Below, in pieces: positions 10,656-59,855 of a DNA stretch of 64,000 nucleotides. A program made the position numbers and the translations under genes. The notes under the pieces were generated by a model. The model did not search any database. It was given only the letters and a program-made list of their open reading frames with translations, and was not told the origin of the DNA. The DNA is from Candidatus Kapaibacterium thiocyanatum (GTDB lineage: Bacteria > Bacteroidota > Ignavibacteria > Kapaibacteriales > Kapaibacteriaceae): positions 1-64,000 of the forward strand of contig MKVH01000002.1 in the NCBI GenBank assembly GCA_001899175.1, in the 5' to 3' direction. How positions within the stretch are numbered: position 1 is the first letter of the stretch; each line of letters opens with the position of its first letter.

Positions 10656-11711
10656 TCATTCCATCGCGACGAATCGCTGGCCGGGGAGGCGGCGTACGAA
10701 GCCCCTGAATTCGAGATCGAGGAGCGTCTGCAACACGGTATCGACGGAGAGGGCCGTCTCGCGGGCGATGTCGTCGACGTACGTCATGCCGTTGCCGATG
10801 GTGTCGATCAACCGTCGTTCGATACCGGAGAGCTCCGGACGTGGTCGTGCGCCGAGCCCGGGCAGCCTGTCGATACCGAGATCCTCGAGAAGCTGTCGCG
10901 CATCGCACAACGTACGGGCATGACCACTGGCGAGCAGGGCATTGCATCCGGCACTGCGCTGGGATGTGACGGGACCGGGAACGGCGTAGAGCGGGCGATG
11001 ATGCTGCCGTGCGAACTCGGCGGTGATGAGCGCCCCACCGGTACGTTTGCTTTCCACGATGACGACGGCATCGCCGAGACCGCTGATGATCCTGTTGCGC
11101 TGAGGGAAGTATGGAGGCAAGGCCGCCTGGCCCCGTGCATATTCGCTGACGATGCACCCACCACCGTCGACGATACGTTCGGCAAGTCTCTTCGCATGGG
11201 CGGGAGTGATGCGATCGATACCGCATGCGATGACGGCGGCGGTGATACCGCTCATGGCGATTGTGGCTTCGTGAGCGAGTGTGTCGATGCCGTTGGCGAG
11301 TCCGCTGACGATGCAGCATCCGGCTTCGACCCATGCCCTGACCAACGACTCGGTGACGGGTCTGCCGTACTGTGCCGTTGCGGCACGTGTACCGACGACG
11401 GCGATGGCCGGAACGTCGTCGGGCGGCAGCCGACCGCGCACGTCGAGCACGATGGGTGGATGGGGGATGGCACGGAGCCGTGCAGGGTAGGTATCGCAGA
11501 AATACGTGACGATGGTCGAATCCGCGGAGGTATCGACGGGCGGCACGTCGGTATCGTCGAGTCCGAGTGGCAGTCCGATCGTCCTGCCGATCCTGTCCAG
11601 TGCTTCATCGATCGTCCCGCATGTCCGCACGAGTGCGATGATATCGGCCGACGTCAGGCCGCGCATGCGGGTGAGGGCTACGATATCGTCGACGGGCCAT
11701 GGTGACTGCAT
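10656..11711 (-). CDS. dprA: DNA processing protein DprA (Smf)
   Basis: 351 residues. A short N-terminal SAM-like helical region (about 8-45) is followed by the Rossmann-type core with VVGTRAAT, IVSGLANGIDTLAHEA, IACGIDRITPAHA and FPQRNRIISGLGDAVVIVE, which are the ssDNA-binding and RecA-loading core of DprA. A winged-helix domain closes the protein (about 290-351, the DML1-like tail). DprA protects incoming single-stranded DNA and loads RecA during natural transformation. It sits 38 nt after the restriction-like 1000-residue protein on the same strand, in the likely operon glmM-restriction-like-dprA. comFC is encoded a few kb away, supporting competence. Confidence 0.93.
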   Translation of the reverse strand: MQSPWPVDDIVALTRMRGLTSADIIALVRTCGTIDEALDRIGRTIGLPLGLDDTDVPPVDTSADSTIVTYFCDTYPARLRAIPHPPIVLDVRGRLPPDDVPAIAVVGTRAATAQYGRPVTESLVRAWVEAGCCIVSGLANGIDTLAHEATIAMSGITAAVIACGIDRITPAHAKRLAERIVDGGGCIVSEYARGQAALPPYFPQRNRIISGLGDAVVIVESKRTGGALITAEFARQHHRPLYAVPGPVTSQRSAGCNALLASGHARTLCDARQLLEDLGIDRLPGLGARPRPELSGIERRLIDTIGNGMTYVDDIARETALSVDTVLQTLLDLEFRGFVRRLPGQRFVAME

Positions 11712-11749: not shown

Positions 11750-14700
11750 TCAGAACGCTACGAGTCGTGCACGCACGGCATCGCCCACGGCTTCACGGAT
11801 GTCGGACGTCGGTAACAGCGCGATCACATCCGTCAATGCATGTTCGAGCGAGCTGCGGAAACGCTGCAGTTGCGGAAGGAGTTCGGCGATGAAGGGCGCG
11901 TCCGTCGGGATCTCGACGTGGATCTTGCCGAGTTCGGCGAGCAGGGCGACGATGTCCGCTTCTTCCTGCGACGAGCAGTCGACGATGTCCTCGACACGGT
12001 TGCCCCGATAGCACGATACCTGCCAGTTGAACATCGTCCGTGTGGCTTCGGCACGTGTGATACCATCCGGCAGCAGGATCGTCCGCCGATGCTCGTCGGG
12101 CAGTTGCTCCAGTGCCGGCGTATACCAGGAAGCGAGAGGACGAAGGCGATGACGTTGTTCGATCTCGTGCAGGAGTGCGAGGGCGAGCTGACGGAGATTG
12201 GTACGGTCGCGGCGCCATGCCATCGCGAAGCGATAGATCCAGCGCTGCTCTTCCGCCGTCAATCCGAAGACCTGTTCCATGAAGTAGACGTCGACGCGGC
12301 GACGGTCGCGTTCGACGCCATCCGGGCGCACGGCATCGGAGCTGTCCGTACCGTATTCGACGGCGAGGGAATGGACGGGCCGGCGCATGAAGTCACGATG
12401 ACGTCTGATATCGACGGCGAGGAGCATGGCATCGGTCGGTACGGGGAATGCGGCCACGTCACGTACGGTGATGTCCTGGGCATGATGGTCGCGCCTGAAC
12501 AGCTCGTAGAGAAAGAGACCCATGGTGGAGTTCATCCACAGTGCGAGAGGATCGGCCAGGCGCTCGTCGGTGAGCGTGATGCCGATGGCGGCATCCGTGA
12601 TGAAGGCATGGACGGGGTTCGTCGTGACGATCCAGCGTCCGTCCTGCACCTTCGGTACGATGAGATGGGGAACGTCCGTGGTGCCGATCGTCCACCAGGG
12701 ATCGCGTACACGCACGGTCGCACGAAGATGGATCCCCTCCCGCTCGAAGGCTTCGATACGGGTGAGGACGTTGAGACCTTCCAGTTCCTGGCGTCCGGCA
12801 TCGATCATGAGAAGCCGATGGTCGGCACGGGGCATGCCCGCGATGCTCTCCAGCTCGTCGGCCGACATGATGGTCGTCGTATCCACCATGTTCCCGTTCG
12901 GAAGGGAGCGCTGCCAGAACTGCATTTCGAGATGGGCATCCGCGATGGTATGCATGTCGGGCAGGAAGAAGTCGTTCGCTCCCGTGCGCATGCCACCCGT
13001 CGCATGACCGACGTCCGAGAGCGGGCGCAGGCGTCCCGTAACCTTGCGGACGATGCCTGCGACGATGTCCGGCGGTACCAGGAAGTCGAACCACCCCTCT
13101 TCACCCAGGCCGGCACTGGCGCGGATGAGGCGTTGCGGTACGACGCGTACGAGGACTTCTTCATTGACCTTGCCTCGCTCGCTCGCGTCGAGATAGCCGA
13201 GGAAGGCGTCGATGGCCGCGATCCGTTTGGGTTCCGCCTCGCGTGGTGCGTCGGACGTGGGGAAGAAGTTGGCGAGCGGCTGACGGATGTAGACGAAGCG
13301 TGCGGGCATGGTATCGTTCGCCTCCCGCTGACGTGCGATGATGCAGCAGAGTCCGGCATCCGGCGTGGAGAAGGGCTGCGCATCGCTCATGAAGATCCTG
13401 TCGATCGAGAAGCGCGAGGCCAGGATACCACGCAGCGTGGCATAGCGCGGGTCGTGCAGGGCTGACATCGGGAGGAAGAGGACGACGGCGCCCTGGGGCG
13501 TCATCGACAGTCGCTGCAGGAGCAGGCGCAGGCGATGACGTTCCGTGACGTCGGTCGACGTGAGGCAGACGAGATCCCAGGCGCCCTGGACGTGATCGTG
13601 CCTCCGTATGATGCGCACATCGGAAGGATGCTCGAGATGACCGCTGCCACGGAGCAGGACGAGGCGCTCGTCGTCGGGCGTCGGTGCATAGATCCGGGCA
13701 TCGGGTATCGTGTTTGTGCGCGCGAGGGCGCGAAGCCGTACGGAACAGAGGCCAGTACTCGGACCTATTTCCAATGCGCGGATCGTCGAATCGGGATGGA
13801 TGTCGGCAAGGATGGAGCGCAGGGCCACGTCGATGACGTCGACGGTAGGCACGGCGCGTTGCTGGCGTGCGAGGCACCATTGGAGGATCGTATCGACGGC
13901 GCTATGCAGGTCGCGAGCAGCGAGGCGTTCGCCATCGAAGCGATGGAGGAACTGCGCGAGATCCGCCAGCGTACTCCGGAAGATGTCGGCGCGCTGCTGG
14001 ACCACGTGCAGGTCGTCCACGCGCGACGGGAACATGGGATAGCCCCGTTCGTGCGCATCCCTGAAGTAGGCGCCCACGATGTCGAGCATGAGGCGTGTGC
14101 CGCGCATGCCCCAGGGAATGGACAGACGGTCGAGATCTTCGGCGCGTCGCATCTGAAGGAGCGTGTAGGCCGTGACGGACGTGACGAGACGCAGGACCTT
14201 GTCGCGTTGCAACGGACTGCGGTCCGTACATGCGATCATCTCGTCGGCGGCCTGCGTGATACGCGAGGCGAGGAACGTTGCCGGATCGCGTGCGGGATGA
14301 GGAGACGTATGGACGACGGTATCGCGGAGGATGGTCCGGAGCGCGTCCGTGACCATGACCGATGCTGCCGATGCGCGGACGTCGTCGAGCGTCACCACGT
14401 CGGCTCCGGAGATGGAGCGTACGATCTGCTCTTCGTCGGGCAGGCGGCGCGTGACTGCATCGGTGACGAAGACGACGCACCGGCGGAAATTGACGAGGGC
14501 GAACAACGGCGCCTGCATCCGTGCTGCCACGCTCCGGGCACGGTCGCGCGCGAACTCGTCGTATGGACGATCGGAAGGGGACAGGGCCTGAAAAAGACAG
14601 AGTGGTTGTGCGCCGTCGCCGCGTACGAGGACGAAGGTCCCTTCCACGCCCGAGATGGCTTCGCACGTCAGATCCAGATCGGCGCGCTCGATGGCATCCT

Positions 14701-14752
14701 GGAGGCAGAGCATCAGGAGCGAGCGTGCATGTTCTTCCATGAGTCCACTCAT
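11750..14752 (-). CDS. Type IIG restriction-modification-like protein with degenerate catalytic sites
   Basis: 1000 residues with a full type IIG-like layout. Residues about 25-110 resemble an HsdR-type nuclease head (LCLFQALSPSDRPYDEFARD then FALVNFRRCVVFVT), but the E-x-K is replaced by Q-A-L at 55-57. A helical connector spans about 150-310. Residues 320-480 have an N6-adenine methyltransferase fold: ALEIGPSTGL takes the place of motif I, and GAVVLFLPMSAL, ILASRFSIDRIF and CCIIARQ match the downstream conserved strands. The NPPY motif IV is absent; its place reads WDLVCLTST (392-400). Residues 570-772 form an intact TaqI-C-like target-recognition domain (GGMRTGANDFF, RDPWWTIG, LALWMNSTMGLFLYELF, VAAFPVP). 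About 230 helical residues follow. The ATG overlaps the glmM stop (ATGA); dprA follows. Probably binds DNA without cutting or methylating it (inference). Confidence 0.75.
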   Translation of the reverse strand: MSGLMEEHARSLLMLCLQDAIERADLDLTCEAISGVEGTFVLVRGDGAQPLCLFQALSPSDRPYDEFARDRARSVAARMQAPLFALVNFRRCVVFVTDAVTRRLPDEEQIVRSISGADVVTLDDVRASAASVMVTDALRTILRDTVVHTSPHPARDPATFLASRITQAADEMIACTDRSPLQRDKVLRLVTSVTAYTLLQMRRAEDLDRLSIPWGMRGTRLMLDIVGAYFRDAHERGYPMFPSRVDDLHVVQQRADIFRSTLADLAQFLHRFDGERLAARDLHSAVDTILQWCLARQQRAVPTVDVIDVALRSILADIHPDSTIRALEIGPSTGLCSVRLRALARTNTIPDARIYAPTPDDERLVLLRGSGHLEHPSDVRIIRRHDHVQGAWDLVCLTSTDVTERHRLRLLLQRLSMTPQGAVVLFLPMSALHDPRYATLRGILASRFSIDRIFMSDAQPFSTPDAGLCCIIARQREANDTMPARFVYIRQPLANFFPTSDAPREAEPKRIAAIDAFLGYLDASERGKVNEEVLVRVVPQRLIRASAGLGEEGWFDFLVPPDIVAGIVRKVTGRLRPLSDVGHATGGMRTGANDFFLPDMHTIADAHLEMQFWQRSLPNGNMVDTTTIMSADELESIAGMPRADHRLLMIDAGRQELEGLNVLTRIEAFEREGIHLRATVRVRDPWWTIGTTDVPHLIVPKVQDGRWIVTTNPVHAFITDAAIGITLTDERLADPLALWMNSTMGLFLYELFRRDHHAQDITVRDVAAFPVPTDAMLLAVDIRRHRDFMRRPVHSLAVEYGTDSSDAVRPDGVERDRRRVDVYFMEQVFGLTAEEQRWIYRFAMAWRRDRTNLRQLALALLHEIEQRHRLRPLASWYTPALEQLPDEHRRTILLPDGITRAEATRTMFNWQVSCYRGNRVEDIVDCSSQEEADIVALLAELGKIHVEIPTDAPFIAELLPQLQRFRSSLEHALTDVIALLPTSDIREAVGDAVRARLVAF

Positions 14753-16101
14753 GCCGACCGCTCCTGCAGATCGGTGACGCGTGCGATCAGTCGTTGCGCT
14801 TCCTCAAATGAAGGCGCTTCGGCGATGATGCGCATGATGGGTTCGGTGTTGGAGGCGCGGACGTGGACCCAGCGGTCGGTCCAGGCTGCGTGCAGACCAT
14901 CGTCGTCGTGGATGATGGCATCGGCGAATGCCTTCCTGCATTCGTCGAGAAGCGGGCCTATCGCAGCCCTGTGGTCGAGCGTCATCTTCGTCTTGATCAT
15001 GTCGTACCGCGGCAGTTCGGCCACTGCGGCCGACATCGTGACGGCCTTGAGCCGAAGCAGGGCCGTGACGAGACCGATACCGACCATGGCGTCCCGTCCG
15101 TAGTGACATGCCGGATAGATGACGCCGCCCGATCCCTCGCCGCCGATGACGGCACCGACGTTCTGCATCCTGCGTACGACGTTGATCTCACCGACAGGTG
15201 CGCGATACGTCGTCTGCTTCGCCGCCGCCGCCACGTCGTCCACGACGCGTGTCGTGGAATAGTTCACCACGACGGGCCCGGTATTGCCGTAGGCCAGGAC
15301 GGCCGCCGTCGCCAGTGCGATGGTATTCTCCTCGCCGATGGGTTCGCCGTGCTCGTCGTAGAGGACGAGGCGGTCGCCGTCCGGATCGACGGCGATGCCG
15401 AAGTCGGCCCGTTGCTCACGGACGGCCTCGCCGAGTCCCGTGAGGTTCTCGGCGGTGGGTTCGGGAACGTGGGGGAAGATGCCGCTGCCGTCGCAATGCA
15501 ATGGAATGACCGTATAGCCGAAGCGTTCGAGGAGCTTGGGCACGATGAAGGAGCCGCTGCAGTTGACGGCATCGACGACGACGCGCTTGCCGTTGGCATG
15601 AGGTGCGCGTTGTACGACGCTGAGGCCGAGGATGGTGCTGATGTGACGTTCGATGGCGTTGTCGACGTGGACGACGTTCCCGCTCTGCTGATCGGCCGAC
15701 AGGACGAAGAGACGATTGTCCACGTGATGCCATAGAGCATCGTTCTGGGCTGCATCGAGGAAGACGCCGTCGGCGCCGATGAACTTCAGCCCGTTCCATG
15801 GGGCCGGGTTGTGCGATGCCGTGATGGCGATGCCTCCGGCCGCATCGCTGTGTTCGGTGAACAACTGGACCGTCGGCGTCGGAACGAGGTCGAGCATGTG
15901 CACGGTGCGCCCACAGGCGCGCAGGGTGCCCAGGACGACGTCCGCGATCCACGTACCGGAAGGGCGTCCGTCACGTCCGACGACGATGGGGCCCTGGGGT
16001 TGCAGTGCCGAGAACGCTGCCGTGTAGTCTGCCACGATCGATGGGGTGAGCGAGTCGCCGAGCGTGGCACGAAGACCCGAGATGCTGCGGATGAGGGGCA
16101 T
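14749..16101 (-). CDS. glmM: Phosphoglucosamine mutase
   Basis: 450 residues, alpha-D-phosphohexomutase family. All four active-site loops are visible: phosphoserine loop TASHNP (about 95-100), metal loop DPDGDR (about 240), sugar loop GEGSGG (about 322) and phosphate-binding RASNTEP near the C-terminus. It converts glucosamine-6-phosphate to glucosamine-1-phosphate for UDP-GlcNAc and peptidoglycan. A phosphomannomutase role cannot be excluded from sequence alone, but the loop set and length suit GlmM. Its stop is overlapped by the start of the restriction-like gene, and pepP precedes it by 21 nt. Confidence 0.85.
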   Translation of the reverse strand: MPLIRSISGLRATLGDSLTPSIVADYTAAFSALQPQGPIVVGRDGRPSGTWIADVVLGTLRACGRTVHMLDLVPTPTVQLFTEHSDAAGGIAITASHNPAPWNGLKFIGADGVFLDAAQNDALWHHVDNRLFVLSADQQSGNVVHVDNAIERHISTILGLSVVQRAPHANGKRVVVDAVNCSGSFIVPKLLERFGYTVIPLHCDGSGIFPHVPEPTAENLTGLGEAVREQRADFGIAVDPDGDRLVLYDEHGEPIGEENTIALATAAVLAYGNTGPVVVNYSTTRVVDDVAAAAKQTTYRAPVGEINVVRRMQNVGAVIGGEGSGGVIYPACHYGRDAMVGIGLVTALLRLKAVTMSAAVAELPRYDMIKTKMTLDHRAAIGPLLDECRKAFADAIIHDDDGLHAAWTDRWVHVRASNTEPIMRIIAEAPSFEEAQRLIARVTDLQERSA

Positions 16102-49302: not shown

Positions 49303-49573
49303 CTCGTTTACGGGAGAGCAAGAGATGAGCCAAGAGATGAGTACGGGATGGTTATCCCATAGGAAGGAATGACGGATAGCGCGGGTCGGCACATGAGGAA
49401 CGGGGGATGGACTCCCATTCGTCCATCGCAGGACGGTGGGCGTGGCTGCATCATGGGTATGGGGCGTACATCCATGTCGGATGGTGAGCGAGGGGTACTC
49501 CTACGAAACGCAGTACGCCGCATCATACGATCGAATCACGACGCCACGTGAATACCCGGCCGACGGTCCCGGC
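49303..49573. other. Intergenic region, no gene
   Basis: 271 bp between convergent genes. It has a short tandem repeat (CAAGAGATGAG, two copies from about 49319) and otherwise no supported feature. Confidence 0.4.
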
Positions 49574-50941
49574 CTACCTCTTGTACTGATATCTCGCGCC
49601 GGGCGGCAGAGCCGAACGCAGGCGATAGTCGCCGAAGCCCGTGTTGTCCTCGAAGGTGAACGTCTGCGAATTGGGATAGGTCCACCGTACGAGCAGGGCG
49701 GAACCGGTCTGCGACGTATACCGCTCGATATTCATCGGCTCGCCGTAGATGATGTAGATCATGCCCATGTCGGTGAGCCAGCCTTCGTTATAGCTCTTGT
49801 AGACCTTGTTGGCGTATTCGATACGGGCGTAGTAGTCTTCGAAGGCTTCGTTGCGTGTCGTATTCGGTGTGGGGTCCAGCTTCTTCCAGAAGTCCTCGAA
49901 CAGGGCCTGACGATCAGCCTCCGTCGGTGCGCCGAGGATCTGGTCGATGTCGCTTTGCGACGGCACGACGTAGCGCAGTTGCCGGATCGCCCGGTTGAGA
50001 TCGCTCAGGATGGCCGTGGTGGCCGTACGGGGGATGATGAAGGGCCGGGTCGTCATCGACACCGTTTCGTTCGTGTCCAGGACGGTCGTGAACGGATGCA
50101 TCCGCACGGTGAGCGAATACGTGCCGGCCGTCGGACGCGGTGGATAGGTCAGACGCATGAAGTGCTGCTGCGTCTTCTCCTTGAGCGTCTCGGCACTGCC
50201 GCTGACGCCGGAGGAGAGGAGTCGTCCGTCCTTCTGCGCGATCTTCCACGAGAACCCGACCTGTTGCGGGACGCGTTCCGCATACGTCTCGAAGAAGATG
50301 AAGAGGGGATTCTCGAGATTCCAGATGGCATCGCCGATGAAAGGCGTGATGGAGTAGCGGCTGCCACGCTGCTCGATCTCGCTCACGTAGAGGATGCTGC
50401 TCAATGCCGGCAGCTCGTCGTTGAAGTCGGATACCGTAAGCGTCTTCGTCTGGGTATAGTCGCGCCTCGAGAACTGGTCGGTCACCGTCACCTCGATCCG
50501 GTAGGTGCCCGGACGCAGTGTGAAGGAGCGCTGGACGATATCGGCCTTGCCCGTCTTGCCACGGCTCGTACCGTAGTCCGCTTCCGCGACTTGACGTGTG
50601 AAGGTCGTGTCCAGGAGCTTGCGGCCGACGGTATCGCGGATGGCCATTGTCACGCGATACTGGGCGGCGAACATCTTGTTGTATTCCTGGAACTCCATCG
50701 ACTGATAGGGGACTGCGAGATAGAGGTCCACCCGTGCCTTGTCGTCGAACAGCGAGCCGCGGAAGGCGAGGGCGTCGACGCGAATGGTCGACGACATGTC
50801 GCCCGGTTGTGCCGCCGCGGGCTGGGGAGGCGGAATGCGCTGCGGTTGCTGCGCAATCGCCGACGTCAGGACTCCTGCCGTGAAGAGCCCCGCCAACAAT
50901 CCTGTCATGGACAGGGTCCGGATGGGAATGCATCGTACCAT
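49574..50941 (-). CDS. GWxTD domain protein, exported
   Basis: 455 residues. A signal peptide (about 1-30) is followed by a Pro/Gln-rich stretch, beta-rich domains (about 50-300, DLYLAVPYQSMEF) and a C-terminal GWxTD domain: FWKKLDPTPNTTRNEAFEDYYARIEYAN, then YNEGWLTDMGMIYIIYGEP. The domain is restricted mainly to Bacteroidota-Chlorobiota-Gemmatimonadota relatives and lacks a known activity. Starts on the last base of the preceding lipoprotein gene (TAATG), so the two are translated together. Confidence 0.87.
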   Translation of the reverse strand: MVRCIPIRTLSMTGLLAGLFTAGVLTSAIAQQPQRIPPPQPAAAQPGDMSSTIRVDALAFRGSLFDDKARVDLYLAVPYQSMEFQEYNKMFAAQYRVTMAIRDTVGRKLLDTTFTRQVAEADYGTSRGKTGKADIVQRSFTLRPGTYRIEVTVTDQFSRRDYTQTKTLTVSDFNDELPALSSILYVSEIEQRGSRYSITPFIGDAIWNLENPLFIFFETYAERVPQQVGFSWKIAQKDGRLLSSGVSGSAETLKEKTQQHFMRLTYPPRPTAGTYSLTVRMHPFTTVLDTNETVSMTTRPFIIPRTATTAILSDLNRAIRQLRYVVPSQSDIDQILGAPTEADRQALFEDFWKKLDPTPNTTRNEAFEDYYARIEYANKVYKSYNEGWLTDMGMIYIIYGEPMNIERYTSQTGSALLVRWTYPNSQTFTFEDNTGFGDYRLRSALPPGARYQYKR

Positions 50942-51360
50942 TATTCTCCAACGAATCGGATGGCGGTCGTACCAGTGAAGCCCGTCGCCACGACGCGGAC
51001 GGAGTCGATAGCGCCCACGAGTGTCGTTCCGTCAGGAAATGACGGACCGTTCGGCGTAAAGACATGCTTGAAGATGACCGTGTCGGCTCGCATCACGTCG
51101 AAGACGGCCGTGCCCTTGGATATGGACGACGATACGAGCGAAAGGTGTTGACGGGACTTGAGCGGGGTGATGACGTTCGGATTCGTGGATCCGTACTTGA
51201 TGGCGTTCAGGGCCGTTATCGTAATCGTCAGCGTATCGTCGATACGATTGGAACCCAGATTGAACTTGCTTTCGGAGATGACGGTCTCTTCGCTCGAGCA
51301 GCCGACGATCGACAGTGAGACGAAGAGGAGGACGACGAAGGACGTGAGTGCCGGGCGCAT
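50941..51360 (-). CDS. Small lipoprotein of unknown family
   Basis: 139 residues. The lipoprotein signal is LLFVSLSIVGCSSE (lipid cysteine about residue 21). The mature part is beta-rich (TLTITITALNAIKYG, GTAVFDVMRADTVIFKH, VRVVATGFTGTTAIRF), as in small immunoglobulin-like or FxxG carbohydrate-binding folds; no family recognised. Coupled to the GWxTD gene by a one-base overlap, suggesting a joint periplasmic or outer-membrane role. ATG at 51360; an in-frame ATG at 51411 lies upstream of the promoter. Confidence 0.7.
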   Translation of the reverse strand: MRPALTSFVVLLFVSLSIVGCSSEETVISESKFNLGSNRIDDTLTITITALNAIKYGSTNPNVITPLKSRQHLSLVSSSISKGTAVFDVMRADTVIFKHVFTPNGPSFPDGTTLVGAIDSVRVVATGFTGTTAIRFVGE

Positions 51361-52793: not shown

Positions 52794-54824
52794 ATGGAAC
52801 TTCAGAACTACCTGTTCATCATCGTATTCGTCGGCGCGTTGGTGCTGTTCGGACGCAGCACACGACGCCTCATCTCATGGCTCAGGATAGCCAGGCCCGA
52901 CGTTCGCTGGGACCGCATCCCCGAACGGATCAGACAGACGCTCATCGTCGGCTTCGGTCAGAGCAAGATCCTGCGCGACAAGGTAGCGGGGCCGATCCAC
53001 GCCGGTATCTTCTGGGGCTTTCTCGTCCTGCTGGCATCGGCCATCGAAATGGTGCTCGAAGGACTCATTCCCGGCGGCACGCTGAACTTCCTCGGACCGG
53101 TCTATTCGGTCATCACGATCCTGACGGACATCTTCTGTCTGCTCATCATCGTCGGTACGATGATGTCGCTGTGGCGCCGCTACGTCAAGAAGGTAAAGCG
53201 CCTGCAGGTCGAAGGAGAGAAGGTCGAAGCCGGTCTCATCCTCCTCACGATCTTCTGCATCGTGACCGCACTGCTGGTGCAGAACGCACTGCGCGTGCAT
53301 GTCGAAGGCGCGGACTTCTCGTGGGCCGTACGCCCCGTCGCACGTCCGCTCGGTAACCTGCTCGCCGCCATGTTCGGTCCGGGGGCACTGTCCTTCCTCT
53401 TCCACGCAGGCTGGTGGATCCATGCCGTCTTCATTCTCGCCTTCCTGAACTACCTGCCGTACTCCAAGCACCTTCACGTACTGACGTCGATCCCGAATGT
53501 CTTCTTCTCCCACATCGGTCCGAACAACGCGATGGAGAAGATCGACTTCGAAGCCGAAGGAGTGGAGAAGTTCGGTATCGTGGACGTCGAGGACTTCTCG
53601 TGGAAGACCCTGTTCGACGGTTATACGTGTACGCACTGCGGTCGCTGTACGAGCGTATGTCCGGCCAATCAGACGGGTAAGGTACTGGATCCACGCGGCG
53701 TTATCGTGGCCATCAACGAGCGTACGATCGACAAGGCACCGCTCATCCTGAAGAAGGAACGGGGCGAGGAGCTGACGCAAGCCGAACAGCAGATATGGGA
53801 CAGGAAGCTCATCGGCGACTACGTTTCGCCGGACGCCCTCTGGGCCTGCACGACGTGCGGCGCCTGCATGCAGGAATGCCCCGTCAACATCGAACACGTA
53901 CCCGCCATCGTCGGCATGCGCCGTTCGATGGTGATGATGGAATCGTCGTTCAACGACGAAAGCGCACTGCTACCGGACATCTACAGCAACATGGAAACGA
54001 ATGCCGTGCCGTGGGGCGGCTTCGCGCAAGCCGATCGCGCGAACTGGGCCGAAGGCATGGGAATCAAGACGGCTGCCGAAGACCCTGCCATGGACGTCCT
54101 GTTCTGGGTGGGCTGCGCGGGATCATATGACGAACGTGCGAAGAAGATATCCCGATCCTTCGCCGAACTGATGCAGGCCGCCGGTGTGGAATTCCGCATC
54201 CTCGGAACCGAAGAACATTGCAACGGCGACGTCGCACGGCGTACAGGTAACGAGTACCTCGCCGACATGCTGACGAAGACGAACATCGAGACGATGCAGC
54301 GTTACGACGTAAAGAAGATCGTCGCGACATGTCCCCACTGCTTCAACACGATCAAGAACGAGTATCCGCAGTTCGGCGGCAACTTCGAAGTGGTGCACCA
54401 TACGCAGTTCATCAAGGAGCTGATCGACACGGGCAAGCTGAAGATCGATCGTGCCTCGGCATCGAAGGAAACGATCACGTATCACGACTCCTGCTATCTC
54501 GGACGCTACAACGAGGAGTACGAGGCGCCGCGCGCCACGCTCACGAACGTTCCCGGACTGGAGATCCTCGAAGTGTCGAGGTCGAAGGACCGCGGTCTGT
54601 GCTGCGGAGCCGGTGGCGGTCGTATGTTCATGGAAGAGCATGTGGGCGACCGCGTCAACGTCGTGCGTACCGACGAACTGCTGGCCACTGGTGCATCGAC
54701 GATCGCCGTGAACTGTCCGTTCTGTACGACGATGATCACGGACGGCGTGAAGGCCGCCGATCGTGTCGACGACGTCCAGGTTCGCGACGTTTCCGAAATC
54801 CTTCTGGATCACATCGTCCGCTGA
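52794..54824 (+). CDS. Membrane-bound FeS oxidoreductase (HdrD/GlpC-like with cytochrome b domain)
   Basis: 676 residues. Helices at about 5-20, 65-90, 100-125, 148-168 and 200-222 resemble the NarI-type cytochrome b module with candidate haem histidines (AGPIHAGIFW, LFHAGWWIHAVFI). Two [4Fe-4S] motifs follow (CTHCGRCTSVCP at about 281, CTTCGACMQECP at about 364), then two CCG cysteine-rich domains (WVGCAGSYDERA with CPHCFNTIKNEYP; HDSCYLGRYN with CCGAGGGRMFMEE). The layout matches heterodisulfide-reductase-like quinone-linked oxidoreductases, often tied to beta-oxidation via ETF. Divergent from the CoA-transferase. The electron donor is unknown. Confidence 0.9.
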   Translation: MELQNYLFIIVFVGALVLFGRSTRRLISWLRIARPDVRWDRIPERIRQTLIVGFGQSKILRDKVAGPIHAGIFWGFLVLLASAIEMVLEGLIPGGTLNFLGPVYSVITILTDIFCLLIIVGTMMSLWRRYVKKVKRLQVEGEKVEAGLILLTIFCIVTALLVQNALRVHVEGADFSWAVRPVARPLGNLLAAMFGPGALSFLFHAGWWIHAVFILAFLNYLPYSKHLHVLTSIPNVFFSHIGPNNAMEKIDFEAEGVEKFGIVDVEDFSWKTLFDGYTCTHCGRCTSVCPANQTGKVLDPRGVIVAINERTIDKAPLILKKERGEELTQAEQQIWDRKLIGDYVSPDALWACTTCGACMQECPVNIEHVPAIVGMRRSMVMMESSFNDESALLPDIYSNMETNAVPWGGFAQADRANWAEGMGIKTAAEDPAMDVLFWVGCAGSYDERAKKISRSFAELMQAAGVEFRILGTEEHCNGDVARRTGNEYLADMLTKTNIETMQRYDVKKIVATCPHCFNTIKNEYPQFGGNFEVVHHTQFIKELIDTGKLKIDRASASKETITYHDSCYLGRYNEEYEAPRATLTNVPGLEILEVSRSKDRGLCCGAGGGRMFMEEHVGDRVNVVRTDELLATGASTIAVNCPFCTTMITDGVKAADRVDDVQVRDVSEILLDHIVR

Positions 54825-54855
54825 CGTTCGATACTACCACGAAGAGAACATCATG

Positions 54856-54886
54856 GATCCCCCGATACCTCGCGTGTCGGGGGATC
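54856..54886. terminator. Terminator between convergent genes
   Basis: 10-bp perfect stem (54856-54865 with 54877-54886) followed by GTTCGTTT on the plus strand. Confidence 0.75.
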
Positions 54887-54913
54887 GTTCGTTTCGGGAG
54901 GGGGGATCCCCGC

Positions 54914-56191
54914 TCAGTGGATACGGAGGGAACGCGACAGCACGCGCGACAGTTCACCCGTGAGCATGCGGCGCTCGAAGCCTTCCACGTATTGTTCGTC
55001 GGGATGAGGAAGCGCGTTCTTCTTCCACTTGTCGTACATCTCGATGATGCACGTCGCGATGGCGTCCACATCGTCCGGAGCGGTGATCCAGGCCGCTCCA
55101 TAGCGTTCGGCATCGCGTCGCAGTGCTCCATCGGGCAGCGAGGCGAGGATCGGCAGCCGTGTGCCGAAGTATTCGTAGAGTTTTCCGCTCGAGACCGTAT
55201 CGGCGTTCTTGCCGTAGCCTACCATCATCCACAGTGCATCGCTGTCCTGGAGCAGGGTGACGGTATCGGCATGGGACATGTAGCCGTGGTCATGGACGAT
55301 ATCCTGAAGGCCCAGTTTCTTCACCGTCTTCCGGTGTTCGTCGCGCAGCAGGCCGGCGAAGTGAAGATCGAGCGAAATGTCCGGTCGGTCCTTCAGCACC
55401 TTCTTCACGGCGCGGAAGAAATAGGACGGCGTGATGAACTCGTAGAAGATCCCTGCATAGGTCAGGCGCATCGCTGCATGTTTCGTATGATTCCGATGCT
55501 GCTGCATGTCCTCCGCATCGTAGCCGTGAGGGATGATGACGACGTCGTCGAAGGCCAGTTGCGGATAGGTGGCGATCAGCCGTTCCTTGATGCGTCTGTT
55601 CGTGACCACGATCTTCGAGGCATGGGTGAGGACGTCGTACTCGTACTGCTTGTGCAGGTGCGCATGCCAGGGTGTGGGATAGAAACTGAACTGGTTGCCG
55701 TACCAGAGATCGCGGTAGTCCAGGATGAGGGGGATGCCGGTCTCCGTGCTCAGCACGGCACCGGCCATCATGGGAGAGAAGGGCGGGCCCGAGACCAGGA
55801 TGGCGTCGAAGTCCACGTCCTTCACGAGGTCGCGCGCCAACATCAGTGCCTGACGGGACCAGCTCTTCTTGTTGTCGGGTACGAAGATTGTGCTGCTTGC
55901 GCGGTTGAGCATCTTGCGCAGCACTTCGCGGGGCATCCTGACGGTGCCCTTGTTCTTGAGGAGGCTGTTCGGATCCTTGCCGCTCGTGCGGTGAATCGTC
56001 ACGTCGCGTCCTTCCAGTTCATCGAGGAGCGACTGGTCGTGCGCATAGTACGCCGTCGGCCCGGTGGCGATCACATGAGGATGCCAGCCGTAGTCGGGCA
56101 GGTACTTGACGAACTTCGTGATACGCTGAACGCCGCTGAGTCCCATCGGTGGGAAGTAGTAGGCGAGGACGAGGACGTTGAGTTGTTCCAT
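54914..56191 (-). CDS. GT4-family glycosyltransferase
   Basis: 425 residues. GT-B fold: an N-terminal domain with LVLAYYFPPMGLSGVQRITKF (glycine-rich acceptor loop) and LVSGPPFSP, then a C-terminal donor-binding domain with the EX7E-like region (YGKNADTVSSGKLYEYFGTRLPILA). Typical of glycan or LPS assembly in Bacteroidota. Minus strand, 6 nt downstream of an M24 peptidase gene with which it is likely co-transcribed. Substrates unknown. Confidence 0.88.
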   Translation of the reverse strand: MEQLNVLVLAYYFPPMGLSGVQRITKFVKYLPDYGWHPHVIATGPTAYYAHDQSLLDELEGRDVTIHRTSGKDPNSLLKNKGTVRMPREVLRKMLNRASSTIFVPDNKKSWSRQALMLARDLVKDVDFDAILVSGPPFSPMMAGAVLSTETGIPLILDYRDLWYGNQFSFYPTPWHAHLHKQYEYDVLTHASKIVVTNRRIKERLIATYPQLAFDDVVIIPHGYDAEDMQQHRNHTKHAAMRLTYAGIFYEFITPSYFFRAVKKVLKDRPDISLDLHFAGLLRDEHRKTVKKLGLQDIVHDHGYMSHADTVTLLQDSDALWMMVGYGKNADTVSSGKLYEYFGTRLPILASLPDGALRRDAERYGAAWITAPDDVDAIATCIIEMYDKWKKNALPHPDEQYVEGFERRMLTGELSRVLSRSLRIH

Positions 56192-56197
56192 GCCCCC

Positions 56198-57295
56198 TTA
56201 CACGATCACCAGTTCACGAGGAGCGGAGGTAAGGATGTCCGGGCCATCCTTCGTGATCACGACGTCGTCTTCGATACGCATGCCGAACTTGCCGGGAAGG
56301 TAGATGCCGGGTTCGATCGTCACGACGCAACCTTCGGGCAGGACTTCCTTGGTATTGGCATAGGAGACGCGAGGATTCTCGTGCACTTCATAGCCGAGGC
56401 CATGACCGAGGGAATGGCGGAAGTAGTCCCCATAGCCTGCCGCCGTGATGAGGTCGCGTGCGGCAGCGTCGAGCTGTGCCGCCGTCACTCCCGTCACCGC
56501 AGCGTCGAGTGCCGACAGATGGGCATCGTAGAGTACGGCGAAGACGTCCATCACCTTCTTCGACGGCGTGCCGATGGCGAAGGTACGGGTCATGTCGCTG
56601 TAGAAGCCGTGAACGCAGCAGCCGAAGTCGACCGTCACGACGTCGCCCTTCTTGATGACGCTGTCGCTGGCGCGGCCATGCGGCATGGCGCTGCGGGCAC
56701 CGCTCACGACGATGATGTCGAAGGCATCCTTCTCGGAGCCGAGCTCGCGTGTGGTGTTCGCGAGCATGGTGGCGACCTGGCGTTCCGTCATGCCGGCCTT
56801 GACGGAGCCGAGCATCCGTTCGTAGGCCATCGAGACGATATTGGCGGCGTGGGCGAGTTCGTTGATCTCGAACGGAGCCTTCACACGTGTGATGGTCTCG
56901 GGAAGGCCGACGGCTTCCATCATCTTCGCGGGAGCCATGGCCTTCTTCATCGCCTTGAAGCCGCTCACCGTATGCCGTGTGGGATCGTAGCCTACGGTCT
57001 TCCACTTCGAGGCGAGGCCGGAGGCCGCGCCCCAGAAATCGCGGTCGATGACGACCTTCAGCCCGTCGAGGGGATAGACTTCCTTCTTGACCTGGATATC
57101 GTACAGGTCGTTCGTAAAGAAGTGGATAGCCTTGTTCGATACTATTGCCATTGCCATCGAACCGCTGAAGCCGAAGAAGTACCGGAGAGAAGGCGTATGG
57201 GACATGACGAGAGCGTCGAGTCCGTGAGCCTTCATGCTTCTGCGCAGCGAGGCGATACGCTCTGCCGCATAGTTGACGTGTGCCTTGCTAGCCAT
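56198..57295 (-). CDS. M24 Xaa-Pro peptidase (PepQ/PepP-like, cytosolic)
   Basis: 365 residues, no signal peptide. Creatinase-type N-domain (about 5-130) and M24 metal site: TVDFGCCVHGFYSDMTRTF, LGHGLGYEVHE, TIEPGIYLPG and GMRIEDDV. Cytosolic counterpart of the secreted enzyme at 16.1 kb; probably a proline dipeptidase or aminopeptidase P. 4 nt downstream of guaB on the same strand, so part of the guaB operon. Confidence 0.92.
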   Translation of the reverse strand: MASKAHVNYAAERIASLRRSMKAHGLDALVMSHTPSLRYFFGFSGSMAMAIVSNKAIHFFTNDLYDIQVKKEVYPLDGLKVVIDRDFWGAASGLASKWKTVGYDPTRHTVSGFKAMKKAMAPAKMMEAVGLPETITRVKAPFEINELAHAANIVSMAYERMLGSVKAGMTERQVATMLANTTRELGSEKDAFDIIVVSGARSAMPHGRASDSVIKKGDVVTVDFGCCVHGFYSDMTRTFAIGTPSKKVMDVFAVLYDAHLSALDAAVTGVTAAQLDAAARDLITAAGYGDYFRHSLGHGLGYEVHENPRVSYANTKEVLPEGCVVTIEPGIYLPGKFGMRIEDDVVITKDGPDILTSAPRELVIV

Positions 57296-57299
57296 GGTA

Positions 57300-59855
<2,556 letters not shown>

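Follow-up and report, generated by a model that had tools for sequence, protein, structure and literature searches.

A restriction-modification-like protein encoded behind glmM in one bacterial family is probably a domesticated, non-enzymatic pseudoenzyme

What can a restriction-modification (R-M) protein do in a chromosome if it neither cuts nor methylates DNA, and why should it lie behind a cell-wall gene? The question is raised by the gene that we call X, found between glmM and dprA in the window, that is, the whole stretch of 64,000 nucleotides analysed here (Table 1). The original prediction had described an intact frame of 1000 codons, translationally coupled to glmM and followed by dprA 38 nt on, all of which we confirm, the overlap with glmM being 4 nt; further neighbours recognised by Pfam are an M24 peptidase, an FMN-dependent idi2-like protein and a polyprenyl synthetase. 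No published description of X was found in the open-licence literature. In this study, we show that in one bacterial family only, a type IIG/Eco57I-like R-M protein is encoded behind glmM, in most cases with dprA on its other side, and our comparisons suggest that it is probably a domesticated R-M pseudoenzyme without enzymatic function. Elsewhere in the window, two open frames of 571 and 1001 aa, at 49436-51151(+) and 54329-57334(+), match nothing in Pfam at E 0.001.

Table 1. Positions of X, its domains and motifs, its two neighbours, and the small frames found behind two cousin enzymes
Feature	Position	Strand	Residues, basis or remark
X, 1000-aa type IIG-like R-M descendant, catalytically dead as judged from its motifs	11750..14752	(-)	intact ORF, fold and profile comparison
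glmM	14749..16101	(-)	4-nt overlap with X start; Pfam PGM_PMM I-IV
dprA	10656..11711	(-)	38 nt downstream of X; Pfam DNA_processg_A and DprA_WH
PD-(D/E)xK-like fold (H-E-E-E-H-E-E), catalytic residues lost	14378..14752	(-)	residues 1-125
Q55-A56-L57 at the E-x-K position	14582..14590	(-)	alignment with active relatives
Helical connector	13853..14377	(-)	residues 126-300; predicted structure
Motif X (GQYFT) position, replaced by a sequence ending in P	13847..13861	(-)	alignment; P302 invariant
Degenerate N6-methyltransferase fold	13283..13852	(-)	residues 301-490
LEIGPSTG in place of motif I DPxCGxG	13751..13774	(-)	residues 327-334; E328, G330 and G334 invariant
CLTST after strand beta4, expected NPPY site; motif and following loop lost	13553..13567	(-)	residues 396-400
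TaqI-C/Eco57I-like target recognition domain, most conserved, net acidic	12443..13087	(-)	residues 556-770
Recognition-domain signature G-M-R-T-G-A	12977..12994	(-)	residues 587-592; invariant but for residue 588
Second half of recognition/helical region	12149..12442	(-)	residues 771-868
C-terminal domain	11753..12148	(-)	residues 869-1000; separate ORF in cousins L107 and L113
Small cousin ORFs	L107:3571-3978; L113:505-921		directly behind type IIG-like enzymes

Sequence searches by themselves miss the homology of X. The best Pfam match is M_Eco57I_C, with an E value of 0.25, a search of NCBIfam gave no match and one of the PDB sequences nothing significant. PADLOC barely detects the protein, through a partial match of MTase_II to residues 572-733 (E 1.1e-9), and its search for a complete known anti-phage defence system found none. 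The relationship emerges from the AlphaFold2 model, built on the family alignment (pLDDT 87), whose top PDB match in a fold search is the type IIG enzyme BpuSI (3s1s; E 1.7e-19, 943 columns), followed by M.BseCI and then CamA; among viral structures, the matches are mostly generic adenine methyltransferases. Profile-profile comparison of X with active relatives by hhalign gives a probability of 99.9 and an E value of 1.2e-36 over 902 columns. Both approaches support the type IIG-like layout that had been proposed for X, with nuclease, helical connector, N6-methyltransferase and recognition domain following one another as they do in BpuSI, and the GxRTGAN signature of the recognition domain aligning with GxxSGAN of the active cousins. 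However, BpuSI is active and contains the PD-(D/E)xK and NPPY motifs, neither of which is present in X, whereas X carries an additional domain at its C-terminus and is encoded by a gene fixed in the chromosome of one bacterial family. The additional domain is modelled with confidence (pLDDT 91); a fold search with it against the PDB gave no significant match.

Both active sites of X have been lost, as judged from an alignment in which the catalytic positions were scored in 21 complete X sequences and in 11 active-looking relatives. The nuclease Lys of E-x-K is found in none of the 21, being replaced by L, V, I, R or T; the acid at the Glu position is kept in 15 (D in 14, E in one), so that part of a metal site could persist, though with no Lys. 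In the methyltransferase, GQYFT and NPPY or N-x-P-[FY] are equally missing from all 21, and the motif-I Asp has given way to Glu in every one of them. The active relatives, by contrast, have ExK, GQYFT or GQFYT, and N-x-P-[FY] in 11 of 11 cases. The replacements first read in the window, QAL at residues 55-57 and CLTST at 396-400, are confirmed to the residue, and the loss extends throughout the clade; set against active outgroups, this family-wide loss makes the observation stronger than first stated. The possibility that the catalytic residues lie elsewhere in the chain was rejected, since every complete member carries substitutions at the aligned positions. In two of these members (G005 and G011), a deletion between motifs I and IV has removed about 60 residues of the methyltransferase fold, which makes that part dispensable there, and the region is altered in a third (G015). 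In BpuSI, the single substitution N406A in NPPY abolished SAM binding as well as methylation and cleavage (PMC3817140).

X is found in 22 of the 23 genomes of the window's Kapabacteria-type family, at identities of 33-52% and with no internal stops. It is full length wherever the contigs permit, one copy (G017) being split across two contigs. In the sole genome without X (G014), the contig ends 116 codons into glmM and dprA is absent too, so the locus is simply unassembled. Outside the family, the genomes searched from the order (123), the class (391) and the phylum (395) contain no full-length X, and the weaker matches resemble Eco57I/type IIG-type proteins. A scan of genome contigs with the single protein found nothing, and a profile scan recovered 20 loci, all on contigs of genomes from this same family. 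Pairwise dN/dS between near relatives is 0.04-0.09 and low in every domain, and more than 50 columns of the alignment are invariant; on these measures, X is under strong purifying selection. Conservation is highest in the recognition domain (52%) and lower in the methyltransferase (43%) and the nuclease (40%), whereas in active class-level cousins, represented by six sequences only, the methyltransferase leads (68%), followed by the nuclease (58%) and the recognition domain (55%). This inversion is expected if a binding surface, rather than catalysis, is now selected. The selection for a non-enzymatic role that had been suggested from the window alone is supported by the intact frames, the low dN/dS and the retention across the family, and the recognition domain has indeed been kept while the catalytic residues were lost.

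These data bear on several other readings of X. An inert relic, kept by chance or since its deletion disturbs the operon, would fit the loss of the catalytic signatures and is nevertheless hardly conceivable for frames of 1000 codons that remain free of stops across lineages diverged to 33% identity, with so many invariant residues and such low dN/dS; for the same reasons, a pseudogene was rejected. That X is an active R-M enzyme with atypical active sites is very improbable: the BpuSI-like layout of the fold and the acid kept in most copies at the ExK Glu position would agree with it, but the Lys, N-x-P-[FY], GQYFT and DPxCG are all absent, the order of conservation is unlike that of active relatives, and there is no conserved separate methyltransferase gene beside X. 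The methyltransferase fold might alternatively serve a new enzyme, binding SAM or a nucleotide through its LEIGxxxG motif I and acting on another substrate. The invariance of E328, G330, G334 and P302 points in this direction, as does a resemblance of the segment to the SAM site of an O-methyltransferase (YrrM, 5zw3), which at E 0.42 is non-significant; the deletions and alteration between motifs I and IV in three members and the lower conservation of this region relative to the recognition domain make such an enzyme unlikely.

A reading that follows the original prediction of a DNA-handling module with dprA, in which X would be a partner of DprA and a sequence-specific reader of incoming DNA in transformation, depends on which neighbour X belongs to. 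The glmM-X-dprA order is found in most family genomes with complete contigs, and the dprA neighbourhood is thus not unique to the window's genome; in addition, comF sits in the same gene block, comEC is present in 21 of the 23 family genomes, and the recognition domain is, as stated, the best conserved part of the protein. However, in sister families glmM directly adjoins dprA with no X between them (G031, G025, G029, G037, G044, G110 and G113), the same idi2 and polyprenyl synthetase genes frequently coming next, and dprA occurs in 115 of 119 genomes of the order, whereas X occurs in a single family. As the glmM-dprA order predates X, the linkage to dprA is inherited gene order and no evidence of a partnership. 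Moreover, X stays with glmM when dprA has moved to another contig, together with idi2 and the polyprenyl synthetase gene (G002), or has been pushed off by insertions, to a distance of 5 kb by an MmeI-type type IIG enzyme and a HipA-like gene (G001; L040:10984-15437) and of 1.7 kb by an AbiD gene (G006; L039:11544-12434). With start codons chosen by the analyst, X is translationally coupled to glmM at every one of the 21 loci examined, the gap between the two ranging from -19 to +18 nt and being most frequently -8 or -4. With X tied to glmM, dprA separable from it and the synteny ancestral, a dedicated X-DprA module is not supported and was rejected; the acidic character of the recognition domain adds to the case against a partnership with DprA, which we consider unlikely. 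The MmeI-type enzyme of G001 looks active. The gap behind X thus takes up defence genes and may be a small landing site for them, which would agree with how X itself probably came to this place.

We return to X as a probable pseudoenzyme and to what it might bind. The net charge of the recognition domain averages -8.5 in X (range -14 to -3) and +7.2 in the active cousins (-1 to 13), and the difference is smaller against active enzymes of the same family, with -3.8 per 100 aa in X and +1.8 in the latter (n=7, range -3.6 to +5.0). Such an acidic domain weakens the case for simple DNA binding, although X may bind DNA, as possibly indicated by the G-x-R-T-G-A signature, invariant apart from one position. 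Among the conceivable ligands, DNA would be the leading candidate while falling short of an even chance, and a protein or other partner comes close behind; a new activity dependent on SAM or a nucleotide appears improbable, and the absence of any ligand more so. A pocket for SAM or a nucleotide is left open by the invariant E328-G330-G334 loop, the adjoining strands being deleted in two members. The more specific idea that an R-M enzyme became a core non-enzymatic DNA reader of the whole family, its specificity frozen rather than diversified and its production shared with that of the cell-wall enzyme GlmM, is put forward only tentatively.

The origin of X can be approached through its active cousins. 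The nearest full-length ones, L107 (family f2) and L113 (f28), are enzymes of 1022-1032 aa of the type that PADLOC lists as REase_MTase_IIG PDLC03606. They share with X nearly whole-length homology and the small C-terminal protein, but they keep PD..EAK, GQYFT, DPSCGAG and NPPY, occur sporadically in unrelated families, and encode the small protein as an ORF of its own, of 136-139 aa, which lies behind the enzyme and matches residues 871-998 of X. X thus looks like a fusion of enzyme and small protein. In the more distant L114-L120, this stretch forms a C-terminal domain that matches weakly, and the direction, fusion or fission, is consequently not certain. The 136-139-aa protein may thus be a subunit of such enzymes that has gone unrecognised. 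Upstream of the L107 enzyme, a 109-aa RadC-like ORF (UPF0758 N-terminal domain; L107:183-512) is apparently cut short at the R-M gene. L114-L120 and L057, at class or order level, are type IIG-like proteins of 1150-1228 aa with NFPF, NFPY or NMPF as motif IV and their remaining catalytic signatures intact. N-x-P-[FY] occurs in other adenine methyltransferases, and these enzymes are probably active; the idea that L114-L120 are also dead for want of NPPY was dropped, since NFPF or NFPY and all the other signatures are present.

The direct glmM-dprA junction in sister families indicates that X entered between both genes once and was inherited with glmM. Of the 18 splits compared, 13 are common to the X tree and the glmM+dprA tree, so X has been inherited mainly vertically. 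The other five conflict, and as some of these have good support in one of the trees, limited transfer may also have occurred. We propose that, in the ancestor of the family, an R-M gene was inserted a single time between glmM and dprA, that the inserted enzyme became joined to its small partner and ceased to be catalytic, and that X would now work without catalysis, most likely as a binding protein using the retained clamp made of connector, methyltransferase fold, recognition domain and C-terminal domain.

R-M domestication is usually discussed for orphan methyltransferases that remain active. X, by contrast, would be an entire single-chain type IIG enzyme apparently kept as a pseudoenzyme, with both activities gone and under strong selection across a family; its active outgroups and known site of insertion make it a clear case for asking what a restriction enzyme can do without cutting or methylating. 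Adenine methyltransferases of the M.BseCI, CamA and M.TaqI type resemble X in their methyltransferase fold and TaqI-C-like recognition domain but are active and have no nuclease head. In Haloferax, the type IIG gene HVO_A0006 is decayed or incomplete and yet continues to affect the cell; it is a rare fragment that keeps PD-(D/E)xK and has transposition genes alongside (PMC4389544), whereas X is full length, putatively dead and universal in its family. The window's own genome also encodes a separate Eco57I-type protein with an intact NPPY, on a 5.2-kb contig (L167, G000:C22:1-5000).
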